A stretch of DNA of 64,000 bases from an alpha proteobacterium AAP38. GTDB taxonomy: Bacteria > Pseudomonadota > Alphaproteobacteria > Azospirillales > Azospirillaceae. The number at the start of each line of letters is the position of its first letter. The first letter of the stretch is position 1. Made by a program: the position numbers and the translations under genes. Location: NCBI GenBank assembly GCA_001296005.1, contig LJHR01000006.1, forward strand, positions 1 to 64,000. The letters run 5' to 3'. The notes under the pieces are model-generated. The model was not told the DNA's origin. It saw nothing but the letters and a program-made list of their open reading frames with translations, and ran no database searches. This document shows positions 5,004-41,909 of this stretch, piece after piece.

Positions 5004-5041
5004 TGGGCCGGGTGAACCCCGGATCAGGCAAGCTGGCAAAA

Positions 5042-5064
5042 GGCGGCGGATGCCGCCGCTCGGC
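5042..5064 (-). repeat. Half copy (A) of dispersed structured element
   Basis: On the minus strand this reads AGCGCCGAGC then GGCGGC-ATCC-GCCGCC: the 5' box and first hairpin of the family also found at 17196, 26636, 28585 and 41838. The flank just 5' of it (AGGGAGAT.TC..GTTC) matches the flank of the 41838 copy. Confidence 0.65.
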
Positions 5065-5085
5065 GCTAAAGCGAACGTGAAATCT

Positions 5086-5109
5086 CCCTTGATCGGTTAC
5101 GATCAAGGG
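5086..5109. terminator. Hairpin just after the TPR gene stop
   Basis: CCCTTGATC and GATCAAGGG pair around the loop GGTTAC, two bases past the stop of the minus-strand gene. There is no T-run. AATCTCCCTTGATCG here recurs exactly at 41795. Confidence 0.5.
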
Positions 5110-16649: not shown

Positions 16650-17102
16650 ATGCAGGTGGCAACGATGGAACCGGCGACGACGGTCGATAGCACCGGCCCG
16701 ATCCCGGATGAGGTGTTGAACGCCAAGCTGATCGCCTGCTGGCAGGCGGCGTTGAATACCGATGACCCTGATGAAAGCCAGCGCTGGGTGGATATGGCCG
16801 AATGGCTGGCCCATCGCGACGATGAACCTGCCCCCACTACGCGAAGCAAGCGCCCCGTCGGCGACCGCCGCCGTTTCCCCCGCGTGCCCGTGCGCAGCAC
16901 GGCGCTGCTGACCCTGGATGGTCGTGTCATCCGGGGTGAAACCGTCAACCTGTCGCGCACGGGCGCCTGTTTTGCCTGCACCGGCCCGGACGGGCTGGAG
17001 ATCGGCATGCAGGGCGTATTTTCGGTGCGCGGCTGGGTGGAGGATCGCCCCGCCCTTATCGTGGCCCTGGACCCCGGTCAGGTCCGCCTGCGGTTCGACT
17101 GA
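16650..17102 (+). CDS. PilZ domain protein (c-di-GMP receptor)
   Basis: A 150-residue protein. The C-terminal PilZ domain begins near residue 70 with RRRFPRVPVRS, giving the RxxxR motif, and continues to NLSRTGACF, giving (D/N)xSxxG. Both c-di-GMP contacts are therefore intact. The N-terminal part is a short helical region without a known domain. The start is chosen at MQVATMEP; the open frame begins at a TTG overlapping the ybbP stop but that leader looks non-coding. Other c-di-GMP-related genes in the window are the degenerate EAL protein and motA, not adjacent. Confidence 0.85.
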   Translation: MQVATMEPATTVDSTGPIPDEVLNAKLIACWQAALNTDDPDESQRWVDMAEWLAHRDDEPAPTTRSKRPVGDRRRFPRVPVRSTALLTLDGRVIRGETVNLSRTGACFACTGPDGLEIGMQGVFSVRGWVEDRPALIVALDPGQVRLRFD

Positions 17103-17148
17103 TACCAGCGGCACGAAATCATAACCCACGGTCAGGCTTTCGTGCTGT

Positions 17149-17183
17149 TAGAGCGTATTTCCGTTAACCGGAAATACGCTCTA
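17149..17183. repeat. 15-bp inverted repeat hairpin after the PilZ gene
   Basis: TAGAGCGTATTTCCG pairs perfectly with its complement around the loop TTAAC. It is the left flank of a composite structure that also holds element copy B and a second hairpin (17266-17295). It may end the PilZ transcript, though it lacks a T-run. Confidence 0.6.
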
Positions 17184-17195
17184 GACCTTCGTTTT

Positions 17196-17265
17196 CCTCA
17201 GGCGCCGGCGCGGCATCCGCCGCTTGGCTTACGCCGCATGTGCGGCGCGGCGGCGGTCGCCGCCG
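17196..17265 (+). repeat. Full copy (B) of dispersed structured element
   Basis: Opens with CTCAGGCGCCGG, then three hairpins: GCGGC-ATCC-GCCGC, the linker TTGGCTTA, CGCCGC-ATGT-GCGGCG, and CGGCGGC-GGTC-GCCGCCG. The stems differ from the copies at 28585 and 41838 but stay paired; first loop and linker are conserved. Confidence 0.75.
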
Positions 17266-17295
17266 GAGCTGTTTCCGGTCTACCGAAAACAGCTC
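17266..17295. repeat. Second flanking hairpin, near cysA 3' end
   Basis: GAGCTGTTTCCGGT and ACCGAAAACAGCTC pair with one mismatch around a 2-nt centre, 15 bp past the cysA stop on the minus strand. It likely marks the 3' end of the sulfate operon mRNA. Confidence 0.55.
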
Positions 17296-17309
17296 TAGTA
17301 TAGGCTCCC

Positions 17310-18353
17310 CTACCCCGCATAGACATTGGCCCGGCGCAGGCGCAACGAGACGGTCTGTCCCGGCGTCAGCGGCGTGGTGGTGGCGTGGCGGTCCAGGACC
17401 GCTTCCACCACCTTACCATCCAGGTTGAGGTCCAGGCGCAGCTGCGGCCCCACGGGCTGGATCAGGCGGATGGTGGCGGACAGGGTCCCCGCCTCTCCCG
17501 GTTCCGCCAGATCGATATCATGGGCGCGGATATAGGCCGTGGCCGGACCCGCCGGCGGCAAGGCGTTGACCACCGGTACACGCGCACCGGCGATGACCGC
17601 CGCACCGTCGGCCACCACGCAGTCCAGCCGCGTGCCACCGCCCAGGAAGTCGCAGACAAAGGCCGAGGCCGGGTTGTCATAGACCTCTGCCGGGGTGCCC
17701 ACCTGTTCGATGCGCCCCTTGTTCAGGATGGCGACGCGGTCGGCCAGTTCCAGTGCTTCTTCCTGGTCATGGGTCACGAATACCGTCGTCACGCCCATGC
17801 CCTTATGGATATCGCGCAGCCAGCGGCGCAATTCCTTGCGCACCTTGGCGTCCAGCGCCCCGAACGGTTCATCCAGCAGCAGGACGCGCGGTTCGGTGGC
17901 CAGCGCGCGGGCCAGCGCCACACGCTGCCGCTGCCCGCCTGAAAGCTGGTTGGGATAGCGGCCCGACAAGGGCGCCAACTGTACCAGTTCCAGAAGGTTC
18001 ATGACGCGCGTGCGGATGTCGGCGTCGGAAATCTTGGGCTTGCGGCGGGAGACGCGCAGACCGAAGGCCACATTCTCAAACACGCTCATATGCCGGAACA
18101 GGGCGTAATGCTGGAACACGAAGCCGACGCGCCGCGCGTGCGGCTCCGACACCGTCGCATCCTCCCCCTCGATCAGCAGGGTGCCTTCATCGGCAAAATC
18201 CAGCCCGCCGATCATGCGCAGCAAGGTGGTCTTGCCCGATCCCGAAGGGCCCAGCAGGGCCATCAGTTCACCGGACTGGATGTCCAGGTCAATCCCGTCC
18301 ACAGCCGCAAAGCCGCCGAAACGCTTGGTCAGGTTCTTGATATTGATGCTCAT
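17310..18353 (-). CDS. cysA: Sulfate/thiosulfate ABC transporter ATP-binding protein CysA
   Basis: 347 residues. Walker A is [12 protein letters not shown], signature [14 protein letters not shown], Walker [13 protein letters not shown] and switch His in [15 protein letters not shown]. The C-terminal third (about 240-347) is the regulatory beta domain (TOBE-like) of CysA-type importers. It is the last gene of sbp-cysT-cysW-cysA, 13 bp after cysW. Together they import sulfate for cysteine synthesis across the inner membrane. Confidence 0.95.
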
Positions 18354-26635: not shown

Positions 26636-26668
26636 TCCCCTCAATCGCCGGGGGCGGCATCCGCCGCC
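26636..26668 (+). repeat. Half copy (C) of dispersed structured element
   Basis: CCCTCAATCGCCGGGG followed by GGCGGC-ATCC-GCCGCC. The 5' flank GATTTCATGTC matches GATGTCGTGTT of the 41838 copy. The second and third hairpins are missing and are replaced by the unrelated hairpin TACCAACG/CGTTGGTA (26670-26700), which touches the ligase stop. Confidence 0.7.
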
Positions 26669-26669
26669 G

Positions 26670-26700
26670 TACCAACGTTCAAAGGATTTTACCGTTGGTA
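26670..26700 (-). terminator. Hairpin at the 3' end of the acyl-CoA ligase gene
   Basis: TACCAACG and CGTTGGTA pair around a 15-nt loop directly past the stop at 26701. There is no T-run, so it is a processed or rho-dependent 3' end at best. Confidence 0.35.
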
Positions 26701-28548: not shown

Positions 28549-28583
28549 CCAAACTGACAAAGGTTTGAACTTTGTCAGTTTGG
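28549..28583. repeat. 14-bp perfect hairpin beside element copy D
   Basis: CCAAACTGACAAAG and its exact complement enclose the loop GTTTGAA. It abuts the third hairpin of element D at 28585, as other hairpins flank copies A, B and C. Confidence 0.7.
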
Positions 28584-28584
28584 A

Positions 28585-28657
28585 GGCCGCCGACTGGCGG
28601 CCCGGCGCTCGTGCGCCGTAAGCCAAGGGCGCGGATGCGCCCGCCCGGCGATTGAGG
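28585..28657 (-). repeat. Full copy (D) of dispersed structured element
   Basis: Minus-strand order: CCTCAATCGCCGGGC, GGGCGC-ATCC-GCGCCC, linker TTGGCTTAC, GGCGC-ACGA-GCGCC, and GGCCGCC-AGTC-GGCGGCC. It lies 14 bp past the motA stop, in the same orientation as motA. Confidence 0.8.
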
Positions 28658-28670
28658 GGCATGAGCACTA

Positions 28671-29531
28671 TCAACTGATCTGGGAGAGGAGTTCTTCCAG
28701 CTCGTTGAAGTCAGGCATATATTCCGAGGGCACCTTTTTTCGGGCTGCTTCGATGGAGACCTGTGGGGCGTATCCGCCCAGATGGGCCACCACCGCCGTC
28801 TTGATCACGCCATAGAACAGACTGTCCTCTTCCGCGATGCCCTTCAGCCGCCCGGCAATGGGAGCGGCCAGGCAATAGGCCAGGAAGATGCCCATGAAGG
28901 TGCCGACCAGCGCGCCGCCGATCAGCTTGCCCAGCACTTCCGGCGGTTCGGAGATCGAGGCCATGGTCTTGATCACGCCCAGCACGGCAGCCACGATGCC
29001 AAGGGCGGGCAATGCGTCGGCCAGACCCTGGATGGCATGGGACGAATGCTGGTCCTCATGCTTCATCTTGTCGATCTCGGCCTCCATCAGGCTTTCCATT
29101 TCCATCGGGTTATCGACGCCGATGGAATACATGCGCAGATAGTCGGCGATGAACTTCACCGTCGTGTTGCTTTTCATCACAGCGGGATAAGCGTTGAAGA
29201 TGTTGCTTTCCAACGGCTTTTCGATGTGCTGCTCAATGGCCAGCACACCCTTGCTCTTCATGGTCTTCAGGATCTGATAGAGCAGGGACAGAAGCTCAAT
29301 ATATTCCTTCTTGTGGAAGGGAGAGCCCGCGAAGATCTTCTTGATGTCCTTGCCCGACGCCTTGACCGTGTGCGTGGAATTGGTGATCAGGAAGGAAGAC
29401 AGGCCGGACCCGCCGATGATCATGATCTCCTTCGGCAGGGCCTCAACGATGATGCCCATCTTGCCGCCGAAGATGACGTAACCGCCGAACACACAGAAAA
29501 ACACGCCGACAAGGCCGATGATGGCGAACAT
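28671..29531 (-). CDS. motA: Flagellar motor stator protein MotA
   Basis: 286 residues with four membrane segments (about 3-22, 34-52, 170-190 and 200-225) and the large cytoplasmic loop between the second and third. The loop has the KSNTTVKFIADYLRMYSIGVDNPMEMESLMEAEID stretch that contains the charged torque-generating region. The PALGIVAAVLGVIKTM motif with its conserved proline precedes the third segment. motB is not adjacent, as in several alphaproteobacteria. Upstream is aroB, 122 bp away. Confidence 0.94.
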   Translation of the reverse strand: MFAIIGLVGVFFCVFGGYVIFGGKMGIIVEALPKEIMIIGGSGLSSFLITNSTHTVKASGKDIKKIFAGSPFHKKEYIELLSLLYQILKTMKSKGVLAIEQHIEKPLESNIFNAYPAVMKSNTTVKFIADYLRMYSIGVDNPMEMESLMEAEIDKMKHEDQHSSHAIQGLADALPALGIVAAVLGVIKTMASISEPPEVLGKLIGGALVGTFMGIFLAYCLAAPIAGRLKGIAEEDSLFYGVIKTAVVAHLGGYAPQVSIEAARKKVPSEYMPDFNELEELLSQIS

Positions 29532-39873: not shown

Positions 39874-41790
39874 ATGCTGCAGATCACCGACCTCACCTAT
39901 CGCATCGCCGGCCGCCTGTTGCTGGATCAGGCCTCTGTCACCATCCCCGCCGGCCACCGTGTGGCGCTGGTGGGCAGGAACGGCACGGGCAAATCCACCC
40001 TGCTGCGCCTGATTGCCGGCGAGGTGCAGGGCGATGCCGGGTCCATCACCCTGCCCACCGGCCTGAAGATGGGTTGGGTGAAACAGGAAGCGCCGGGCAG
40101 CGAGATGTCGCTGATCGATGCCGTGCTGGCCGCCGATACTGAACGCACCGCGTTGCTGGCCGAGGCGGAGACAGCGACCGATCCGTTGCGCATCGCGGAA
40201 ATCCATCACCGCCTGTCCGATATCCAGGCCCATTCGGCAGAGGCGCGGGCCGCGCGCATTCTGTCGGGCCTGGGTTTTGATGCCGACGCACAGCGGCGGC
40301 CCTGTTCGGATTTCTCCGGCGGTTGGCGCATGCGTGTGGCGCTGGCCGGCGTGCTGTTTGCCGAACCCGACCTGCTGCTGCTGGACGAGCCGACCAACCA
40401 TCTGGATCTGGAAGCGACCCTGTGGCTGGAGGAATATCTACGCAACTACCCGCACACGATGCTGATCGTGTCCCATGACCGTGGCCTGCTGAACCGCGTG
40501 CCGACCAGCATCGTGCATCTGGATCAGTTGAAGCTGACCGCCTATGGCGGCAATTACGATCAGTTCGTGCAGGTCCGCACCATGCGGATGGAGCATGCCA
40601 AGGCCCAGGCCGCCAAGCAGGACGCCCAGCGCGCGCACCTGCAGGCCTTCGTGGACCGGTTCCGCGCCAAGGCCAGCAAGGCCACCCAGGCGCAATCGAA
40701 ACTGAAAGCGATTGAACGGCTGGGCCCGCGCATCCAGGTCATTGACGACACGCCCGTCAATTTCAACTTCCCCTCGCCCGACGAACTGGCCCCGCCGCTG
40801 ATTCGGCTGGACGATGTTTCCGTCGGTTATGGCGACAGGGTGGTGTTGCGAAAGCTGGGCCTGCGCATCGATGCCGATGACCGCATCGCGCTCTTGGGCG
40901 CCAACGGCAATGGCAAGTCGACGCTGGTCAAGCTGCTGGCCGGTCGCCTGGGCACCATGGGCGGGGAGATGTTCCGCTCAAGCAAGCTGCGTGTCGGCTA
41001 TTTTGCACAACATCAGTCAGATGAGCTGAACCTGGGTTGGACGGCCCTGCAACAGATGCAGTCGGTGATGCCGGCGGGTACACTGGAGGGGCAGGCGCGG
41101 TCGCATCTGGGCCGCTTCGGCTTTACCCAGCCCAAGGCCGATACCAAGATCAGCAGCCTGTCGGGCGGGGAGAAGGCCAAGCTGCTGCTGGCCATGATGA
41201 CCCGCGACGCGCCGCATATCCTGATGCTGGACGAACCGACCAACCATCTGGATATCGACAGCCGCGAGGCGCTGGTCGAGGCGCTGAACGAGTATGAAGG
41301 CGCGGTGATCGTCATCAGCCACGACCCTTATCTGGTGGAGCTGACCGCCGACCGCCTGTGGCTGGTAAATGACGGCACCTGCAAGCCGTTCGAGGGCGAC
41401 CTGGACGATTACAAGCGCCTGCTGCTGGAGAAAAGCCGGGCAGAGCGCGCGGCTGCCGCTGGCGTCGGCGGGGGTACTGCCGCCGACAAGTCCGGCGGGC
41501 GCGATGCGCGCAAGGACGAACGCCGGGCAGCGGCAGAGTTGCGTCAGCAACTGGCCCCGCTGCGCCGGCAGATCGAGGCGCTTGAGAAGAAAATGGCCAC
41601 CCTGACCAAGCGCAAGACGGAGCTGGAGGCCAAACTGGCCGATCCCAAGCTTTATGAAGGGCCGTCGGACAAGGTGTCGAAGTTGCAGATTGAGCTGGGT
41701 TCCGTCGCCAACGACCTGGAGGGCGTGGAAATGGAATGGCTGGACCTGTCCGAACAGATGGAAACGGCGCTGGCGGCGGGCGGGGTATAG
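39874..41790 (+). CDS. ABC-F family ATPase (YheS/Uup type)
   Basis: 638 residues, a soluble protein with two ABC domains and no membrane segment. Domain 1: Walker A GRNGTGKSTLLR, signature FSGGWRMRVALA, Walker B LLLLDEPTNHLD. Domain 2: GANGNGKSTLVK, SLSGGEKAKLLLA, ILMLDEPTNHLDI. Between them lies the P-site tRNA-interaction linker (about 225-295), and the C-terminus is a charged coiled coil (about 550-625). ABC-F proteins act on the ribosome. The exact subfamily is uncertain. Confidence 0.93.
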   Translation: MLQITDLTYRIAGRLLLDQASVTIPAGHRVALVGRNGTGKSTLLRLIAGEVQGDAGSITLPTGLKMGWVKQEAPGSEMSLIDAVLAADTERTALLAEAETATDPLRIAEIHHRLSDIQAHSAEARAARILSGLGFDADAQRRPCSDFSGGWRMRVALAGVLFAEPDLLLLDEPTNHLDLEATLWLEEYLRNYPHTMLIVSHDRGLLNRVPTSIVHLDQLKLTAYGGNYDQFVQVRTMRMEHAKAQAAKQDAQRAHLQAFVDRFRAKASKATQAQSKLKAIERLGPRIQVIDDTPVNFNFPSPDELAPPLIRLDDVSVGYGDRVVLRKLGLRIDADDRIALLGANGNGKSTLVKLLAGRLGTMGGEMFRSSKLRVGYFAQHQSDELNLGWTALQQMQSVMPAGTLEGQARSHLGRFGFTQPKADTKISSLSGGEKAKLLLAMMTRDAPHILMLDEPTNHLDIDSREALVEALNEYEGAVIVISHDPYLVELTADRLWLVNDGTCKPFEGDLDDYKRLLLEKSRAERAAAAGVGGGTAADKSGGRDARKDERRAAAELRQQLAPLRRQIEALEKKMATLTKRKTELEAKLADPKLYEGPSDKVSKLQIELGSVANDLEGVEMEWLDLSEQMETALAAGGV

Positions 41791-41837
41791 GCCCAATCTC
41801 CCTTGATCGTGCCCGACCCAGGGAGATGTCGTGTTCC

Positions 41838-41909
41838 CTCAATCGCCGGGCGCCCGCATCCGCGGGCTTGGCTTTCGGCGCATGAGCGCCGGGCTGGCAG
41901 TCGCCAGCC
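41838..41909 (+). repeat. Full copy (E) of dispersed structured element
   Basis: CCTCAATCGCCGGGC, GCCCGC-ATCC-GCGGGC, linker TTGGCTTTC, GGCGC-ATGA-GCGCC, and GGCTGGC-AGTC-GCCAGCC. A further 7-bp stem ATCTCCC/GGGAGAT (41796-41827) lies upstream. It follows the ABC-F gene in the same orientation. Confidence 0.8.

Follow-up and report, generated by a model that had tools for sequence, protein, structure and literature searches.

A dispersed multi-hairpin repeat near gene 3' ends in Niveispirillum and other Alphaproteobacteria, with stems probably exchanged between copies

The window analyzed here, a stretch of 64,000 nt of contig LJHR01000006.1 (assembly GCA_001296005.1) from the alphaproteobacterium AAP38 of the genus Niveispirillum, contains at position 28585 an array of hairpins with a motA-like gene on one side and an intrinsic-terminator-like hairpin on the other. 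A preliminary description of this DNA, made from its letters alone, had listed five copies of such an element, three full and two half. All five places proved to be real, the full copies being matched with 74.0–99.4 bits and the half copies weakly (E 0.12 and E 0.28). The loops ATCC and (A/G)GTC, the TTGGCTT linker, and the four words of stem 1 (GCGGC, GGGCGC, GCCCGC, and GGCGGC) were also found as described. The features are given below with the hairpins of the element numbered 0 to 4; G006 is Niveispirillum cyanobacteriorum (copy coordinates identical in NZ_CP025613.1), of the same genus as the window, and G005 is another genome used for comparison.

5010 to 5072, minus strand: degenerate half copy (the 5042 copy), box and hairpin 1 remaining, E 0.28; orthologue complete in G005, site empty in G006
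5086 to 5109, minus strand: hairpin 0 of the 5042 copy, CCTTGATCG...CGATCAAGG, immediately after a TGA stop codon
17149 to 17183, plus strand: hairpin 0 of the 17196 copy, TAGAGCGTATTTCCGT...
17196 to 17265, plus strand: full core copy of the short-stem type (hairpin 1 GCGGC with loop ATCC; hairpin 2 CGCCGC; hairpin 3 loop GGTC), 74.0 bits, E 1.3e-10
17266 to 17295, plus strand: hairpin 4 of the 17196 copy, GAGCTGTTTCCGG TCTA CCGAAAACAGCTC
26639 to 26697, plus strand: half copy, box and hairpin 1 fused to hairpin 4 (TACCAACG...CGTTGGTA), E 0.12
28549 to 28583, minus strand: hairpin 4 of the 28585 copy, a 14-bp palindrome beside the core, CCAAACTGACAAAG...CTTTGTCAGTTTGG
28585 to 28657, minus strand: full core copy with CCTCA box, hairpin 1 (GGGCGC, loop ATCC), TTGGCTT, hairpin 2 and hairpin 3 (loop AGTC), 96.5 bits, E 5.8e-15
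28671 to 29531: motA-like gene upstream of the 28585 copy (Pfam matches MotA_N and MotA_ExbB), stop codon 13 nt from the copy
39874 to 41790: ABC-ATPase gene, 5' neighbor of the 41837 copy
41796 to 41827, plus strand: hairpin 0 of the 41837 copy, ATCTCCCTTG...CCAGGGAGAT
41837 to 41909, plus strand: full core copy, hairpin 1 GCCCGC with loop ATCC, 99.4 bits, E 1.6e-15

An extra palindrome-like stretch (TGATACCAGCGGCACGAAATC..) was observed at 17102-17140, running from the TGA of a PilZ gene and lying before hairpin 0 of the 17196 copy. In place of the element at 17116-17311, G006 carried different sequence of about 2.5 kb that seems to be coding. At 26639-26697 the window kept the hairpin with the ATCC loop and G006 had, at the same place, a hairpin with an AGTC loop resembling hairpin 3, as if different hairpins had been lost from one ancestral copy.

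The full element measured about 145–160 nt and comprised up to five hairpins in the order (hairpin 0), CCTCA box, hairpin 1, TTGGCTT, hairpin 2, hairpin 3, (hairpin 4). Its core followed the pattern CCTCA(A/G)NCGCCGGGCG - stem - ATCC - stem - CTTGGCTT - hairpin 2 - hairpin 3, the last with the loop (A/G)GTC. Hairpin 0, before the core, was optional, and hairpin 4 adjoined the core directly in most copies. The hairpins beside the copies had been called unrelated to them, and for the one after the core this had to be revised: a palindrome with an arm of at least 10 within 60 nt after the core was present in 78 of 110 copies vs 27 of 150 control intergenic stretches, and it is part of the unit. 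Before the core, palindromes with such arms were found in 32/110 copies vs the same 27/150 controls, with arms closely alike in several copies (GGCACGAAATC.., AGAGCGTRTTTCC.., CCCTTGATCG..). The ends of the element were variable (ATACC..GGTAT or GAGC..GCTC), and the 5' end CCTC was seen in four alignments in 91/95 and 14/20 rows from AAP38 and in 77/80 and 32/32 further rows.

In single-stranded DNA folds of the three full copies in the window, GCC of the box paired with GGC of the linker around hairpin 1, leaving a bulge that was followed by a stem of 5–6 bp; further copies were judged by eye. This pairing is without support from covariation because both partners are nearly invariant. Two of the three copies folded better than all of 200 shuffled sequences (z -3.7 each), and the copy at 17196 reached z -1.27, with 21 of the 200 shuffles folding equally well. 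The 28585 copy together with its hairpin 4 gave z -7.7.

A BLAST search of the AAP38 genome with the 28585 copy returned at least 40 matches (40 of 87 candidates scored), and 23 copies from this genome were aligned (alignment A1) and converted into a covariance model (R1). The preliminary description had proposed such a search for further copies, and about 100 more were found, with stems that pair. With R1, 120 matches at E<=1 and 109 at E<=1e-3 were obtained in AAP38 (150 candidates scored), 94 at E<=0.01 in G006, 80 at E<=1e-3 in G005, and 103 at E<=1e-3 in a genome of another genus (g2). Across the order, 52 of 82 genomes gave matches at E<=1e-3, including 11/11 of Niveispirillum and 7/7 of g2, and at least 14 element copies were present in each of ten congeners among the matches listed. 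Copy numbers were high in these two genera, and most genomes of g12 had few or no copies. At class level, stricter filters and E<=1e-4 left 30 matching genomes in a sample of 385, three of these 30 belonging to Niveispirillum. The combination of box, hairpin 1, and linker was found, among the matches listed, in Nitrospirillum, Roseomonas, Falsiroseomonas, Roseococcus, Rhodovarius, Erythrobacter, Sphingorhabdus, Aquisediminimonas, Magnetospirillum, Telmatospirillum, Novispirillum, Oleisolibacter, and Aerophototrophica. Between lineages, as judged by eye, hairpin 2 varied and hairpin 1 and mostly hairpin 3 were retained. The element was confirmed as a real dispersed repeat with about 100 copies in the genome and scattered copies across Alphaproteobacteria. 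In a gap between urtE and fmdA on pTM2 of Tistrella mobilis (L269, 1365-1650), three tandem units shared TTGGC and hairpin 1, which was identical in two of the three, and had a second hairpin that differed from the Niveispirillum type.

Nearly all stem cells of the family were paired. In A1, 97.6% of 421 cells were paired and 64 were changed on both sides, vs 78.0% and 18.7 after shuffling the 3' letters and 30–58% and 6–12 with slid structures; the figure for A1 leans to pairing because its rows were BLAST hits of one copy and its structure was set by hand. A pattern scan with box, loop, and linker fixed and eight stem letters left free found at least 118 stretches; among the matches listed there were 133 distinct copies, 121 of them with four fully complementary stem pairs, carrying 29 different 5' words with 2 G-U and 3 A-C in 532 cells. 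The earlier statement that stems vary and yet pair was borne out in this way. Among 94 distinct rows from AAP38, 1673 of 1741 letter-bearing cells were Watson-Crick, 10 G-U, 23 A-C, and 35 other; 70 distinct rows from other genomes gave 1304 Watson-Crick, 8 G-U, 9 A-C, and 2 other cells. A G-C pair becomes G-U or A-C by one transition each, and RNA read from the sense strand should therefore give an excess of G-U. No such excess over A-C was observed in any of five partly overlapping sets: AAP38 (10 vs 23), other genomes (8 vs 9), pattern scan (2 vs 3), orthologues (10 vs 17), and hairpin 4 (7 vs 13).

The comparison of close species showed the element to be present or missing as a unit. The window was syntenic with G006 over 12 blocks (59.4 kb), and the element was missing there at sites 5042, 28585, and 41837, the 28585 element being missing also in G005. 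Elsewhere in the compared stretches, four places held it in G006 only, and at 86.7 kb of C56 dissimilar copies were found in AAP38 and G006. From G006 to AAP38, both flanks were located for 46 of 80 rows; a match was present in 24 of these and missing in 22, the latter count possibly one too high since the 80 rows contain one copy twice (L126 and L145, outside the shared pairs). From G005 to AAP38 the figures were 22 of 32 rows (15 with a match, 7 without), and from AAP38 to G006 they were 34 of 115 (23 with, 11 without). Flanks of shared pairs were 89–99% identical. At the sites without a match the gap was at least 60 nt shorter in 19/22, 6/7, and 6/11 cases, respectively, and the remainder held other sequence or a degenerate copy. 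The cleanest empty sites differed by 161 nt directly after a TGA stop codon (L031) and by 145 nt (L326), hairpin 0, core, and hairpin 4 being absent together, and no clear target duplication was seen at clean presence/absence sites.

At the motA locus, the two nearest species (motA-like gene 94–95% identical) had the gene and the terminator and lacked the 28585 element. With R1, only weak matches were obtained there in 10 congeners, two of the 10 contigs ending less than 100 nt from the gene. One of them, in G007 (L080), lay just behind the motA-like gene at chance level (17.2 bits, E 0.062), and a remnant at that place is therefore possible. Parts of the element had also been lost: at 51.9 kb of C7, the core was missing from G006 and the hairpins on either side of it were retained, and the half copy at 5042 was internally deleted, as seen from the complete, half, and empty states in G005, the window, and G006. 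Absence in a relative can be the result of deletion.

To see how the stems change, 46 co-oriented orthologous pairs with 831 cells were compared, after three pairs in opposite orientation and 43 gap cells had been dropped; five targets were used more than once among the 49 pairs. The cells comprised 758 unchanged, 28 changed on both sides from one Watson-Crick pair to another, 2 with other two-sided changes, and 43 changed on one side (10 G-U, 17 A-C, 15 other, and 1 unclassed). One-sided changes outnumbered two-sided ones and stems therefore do decay. Simple arithmetic from the one-sided rate predicts about 0.6 two-sided cells vs the 28 observed. Of 138 orthologous hairpins, 85 were identical, 34 had one-sided changes only, 6 had one two-sided change, 8 had at least two, and 5 were not comparable. 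Two of those eight hairpins belonged to locus L167, two to a single copy that was unlike throughout (L143/L093), and a fifth (L127/L237) was confounded by a deletion, which left about four clean swaps. These were hairpin 2 of L167 in AAP38, where G005 and G006 share the other word, and hairpin 1 of L133/L109, L356/L153, and L361/L096. The AAP38 words at these four loci occurred 10, 21, 21, and 4 times in the AAP38 set, the copy itself counted. The remaining differences at swap loci were mostly scattered single bases, and in L361/L096 hairpin 2 differed as well. At orthologous loci, two-sided changes were concentrated in hairpins swapped for words that are present at other places in the genome. 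The preliminary description had called the changes compensatory; the pairing stood, and a base-by-base reading of it calls for revision, since no G-U excess was seen and the two-sided changes cluster in swaps beside scattered one-sided decay.

In hairpin 4, 34 one-sided and 4 two-sided Watson-Crick changes were counted in 31 pairs, after dropping six pairs less than 70% alike; hairpin 4 of L311 and AAP38 L160 differed by one change of a G-C to an A-T pair and was otherwise the same over 63 nt. For hairpin 0, four comparable pairs gave three A-C changes and zero two-sided ones. Furthermore, 70 combinations of stem words occurred among 95 copies, unparsed hairpins being treated as one class. The words of hairpins 1 and 2 were nearly unlinked (mutual information 0.91 vs 0.82 after shuffling, 61 of 500 shuffles being as high; 69 of the 95 copies parsed). 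Those of hairpins 2 and 3 were linked (0/500 shuffles), as were those of hairpins 1 and 3 (6/500), so reassortment is not free. These patterns may be read to mean that copies exchange hairpins as cassettes, that some template switching takes place as well, and that ordinary decay forms the background.

The position of the copies relative to genes was analyzed with gene calls from a custom script (1295 genes in 1.35 Mb, 88% coding). Of 110 placed copies only one lay inside a predicted gene; this one and two at contig edges were excluded from the context count (n = 107). The box side faced a stop codon in 72 of the 107 copies (median distance 15 nt) and a start codon in 35, in agreement with the placement at gene 3' ends noted before, and 44 of the 72 stop-facing copies started 5–19 nt past the stop codon. 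Convergent gene pairs held 34/107 copies vs 214/1212 of all pairs, element-bearing pairs included (p 7e-4). In tandem pairs, copies lay near the stop codon in either orientation, the median distance being 13 nt where the box faced it and 33.5 nt where hairpin 3 did, the latter spacing leaving room for hairpin 4; the orientation bias was weak (38 vs 24, p 0.098). Neighboring copies less than 300 nt apart formed two pairs among the 110, of which one was co-oriented and the other had its members in opposite orientation.

Two copies in other genomes were found beside RNA genes. A Falsiroseomonas copy (L370, 7049-7087) directly followed a tmRNA gene as delimited by ARAGORN, the Rfam end of the gene lying about 40 nt earlier, and a copy in a Sphingomonadales MAG (L392, 3310-3330) lay about 10 nt past a tRNA-Leu gene. 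The 3'-end preference therefore needs no stop codon, and stop-codon specificity was weakened as a rule. A role as intrinsic terminator was rejected as well: with a simple rule, terminator-like sites were scored after 9 of 72 sense copies and between stop codon and element in 4, vs 30 of 512 control genes, and hence the element is not generally a terminator. Six AAP38 copies had a start codon within 18 nt on the box side, and at about position 1500 of L003 and L027 the reversed element end TGAGGGAG stood shortly upstream of an ATG, where it may be the Shine-Dalgarno sequence of the downstream gene.

The search for a mover covered transposase domains, neighboring genes, and a possible master element. 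The preliminary description had suggested a REP-type transposase, a link that found no support: PF01797 (Y1/RAYT) had no match in any of 10 congeners, all ten carrying the element, and one marginal match in AAP38 (24.5 bits, cut-off 23), and an association with a RAYT was discarded for the genus. By eye, nothing transposase-like was seen among the genes between neighboring copies. Pairs of TGATACCA...TGGTATCA not more than 4 kb apart numbered two in 1.35 Mb, both from one hairpin end at L241, and TGATACCA showed no strong enrichment (25 seen, 16 expected). No further candidate for the mover emerged from these scans.

Taken as a whole, the element is probably a dispersed, non-autonomous REP/BIME-like DNA element with hairpins that are exchanged as cassettes. 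At some orthologous loci single hairpins were replaced, both arms together, by stem words of the family, the neighboring hairpins being unchanged. On this reading the element would spread as DNA folded from a single strand or extruded as a cruciform, and what is read in this form would be the constant loops, the box, and the linker. By pairing of box GCC with linker GGC, hairpin 1 would become a bulged palindrome carrying a 5' tag, as in REPs. Copies would exchange hairpin words through short-tract conversion or through template switching, an exchange that could keep the stems perfect palindromes without stepwise compensation. Insertions would persist mostly in places past a gene, and there they may furnish the RNA with a passive 3' hairpin. 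The mover would be some enzyme other than a RAYT in Niveispirillum. A wider form of the proposal is advanced only tentatively: a class-wide single-stranded DNA hairpin family of Alphaproteobacteria with interchangeable cassettes and a mover enzyme so far unrecognized, in which loops and joints are read and stems are rewritten as arm pairs by exchange between copies, giving covariation without selection on each pair.

The preliminary description had inferred selection on structure, either as RNA or as extruded DNA, and of these extruded DNA fits better. As a cis-acting structure of the 3' UTR (an mRNA stabilizer or a barrier to Rho or ribosomes), with its RNA fold under selection, the element would explain why the 44 stop-facing copies begin so close behind the stop codon and why the loops are constant across genera, and other REPs in such places are thought to act in RNA (accessible text of PMC3733652). 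Nevertheless, G-U was not commoner than A-C in any set, 24 of 62 copies in tandem pairs were antisense, two copies elsewhere follow tRNA and tmRNA genes, a third to half of the placed copies were unmatched in a near relative, and the two-sided changes were clustered in swaps, so that this explanation appears unlikely. Slightly less weight is given to template switching that would homogenize the arms within one copy only, with neither exchange between copies nor mobility of its own: the single pair change in hairpin 4 of L311/L160 is what it predicts and the mechanism has been proposed for perfect hairpins (PMC8794818, as far as its text is accessible), but the clean swaps of hairpins 1 and 2 land on words present elsewhere in the same genome, one-sided changes prevail in hairpin 4, and whole units are present or missing. 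A DNA palindrome bound by a protein (a nucleoid protein, gyrase, or similar), spread by recombination with its binding under selection, would account for a constant box, loops, and linker beside free stems and for both orientations; the high turnover between species makes it improbable. Transposition by a RAYT, suggested by a tagged, bulged, extragenic palindrome in high copy and by the joint occurrence of REPs and RAYTs in many genomes (PMC2817692, accessible part), is very improbable and within the genus largely refuted, given the PF01797 counts above in congeners with at least 14 copies each among the matches listed, the marginal match in AAP38, and the absence of the GTAG tag.

A covarying stem is usually treated as proof that an RNA is under selection. 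In this family covariation was strong, yet the two-sided changes at orthologous loci clustered in hairpin swaps and G-U was not favored, and the usual inference of an RNA could therefore mislead. With about 100 copies per genome and several close species, stepwise change, template switching, and conversion between copies become directly countable.

The absence of a named family, as supposed at the outset, held in Rfam: at the gathering score there were no hits at the elements of the window or at 18 other loci, the best match below threshold being Cis52_sRNA (22.5 bits vs 56). No prior description was found in the open literature, including by sequence strings, although subscription papers lay mostly outside this search and an earlier description is possible. 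Relative to MITEs, the element has short inverted ends, no clear target duplication at clean sites, and no partner in the 1.35 Mb scanned. RIME and other rhizobial intergenic mosaics are palindrome mosaics of Alphaproteobacteria too, a likeness drawn from their general description. The general features of REPs and BIMEs were all found, namely short palindromic units in high copy, extragenic and close to gene 3' ends. As far as the accessible parts of PMC2817692, PMC8266576, and PMC3116915 describe them, GTAG REPs, BIMEs, and REPINs share with the element the high copy number, the mosaic of palindromes, the bulged hairpin with a 5' motif, and the extragenic location; unlike them, the element is without a GTAG tag and without a RAYT match in 10 congeners, and its hairpins differ from one another and keep one order. 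The hairpins attributed to template switching in the accessible text of PMC8794818 show the same two-sided stem changes without intermediates, but they lie within RNA genes, whereas here a repeat family has stem words common to several copies.

The nearest likeness in the same class is with CGTC-tagged REPs, which the accessible text of PMC3733652 describes as mainly alphaproteobacterial, extragenic, near ORF 3' ends (in convergent pairs of the two species shown, mostly less than 20 bp away), and without a dedicated transposase. They have a stem of 8–9 bp almost always starting with AT, a loop of 4–5 nt, mostly a CCA tail, and tag variants including TGTC and CCTC, and they are largely arranged as head-to-head dimers (same source). 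The element resembles them in starting with CCTCA, in lying near gene 3' ends, and in having no known transposase; it differs in that GCC and a bulge come after its tag, with a free stem of 5–6 bp, the loop ATCC, and more hairpins behind them, and in that the AAP38 copies are not mainly head-to-head dimers (one opposite-orientation pair within 300 nt among 110). Since its stem departs from the rule for CGTC REPs, the element is regarded as a variant of the REP/BIME kind and a member of neither REP superfamily. In a class from which the accessible text of PMC3733652 already reports extragenic repeat families with no known mover, it is a further large one.
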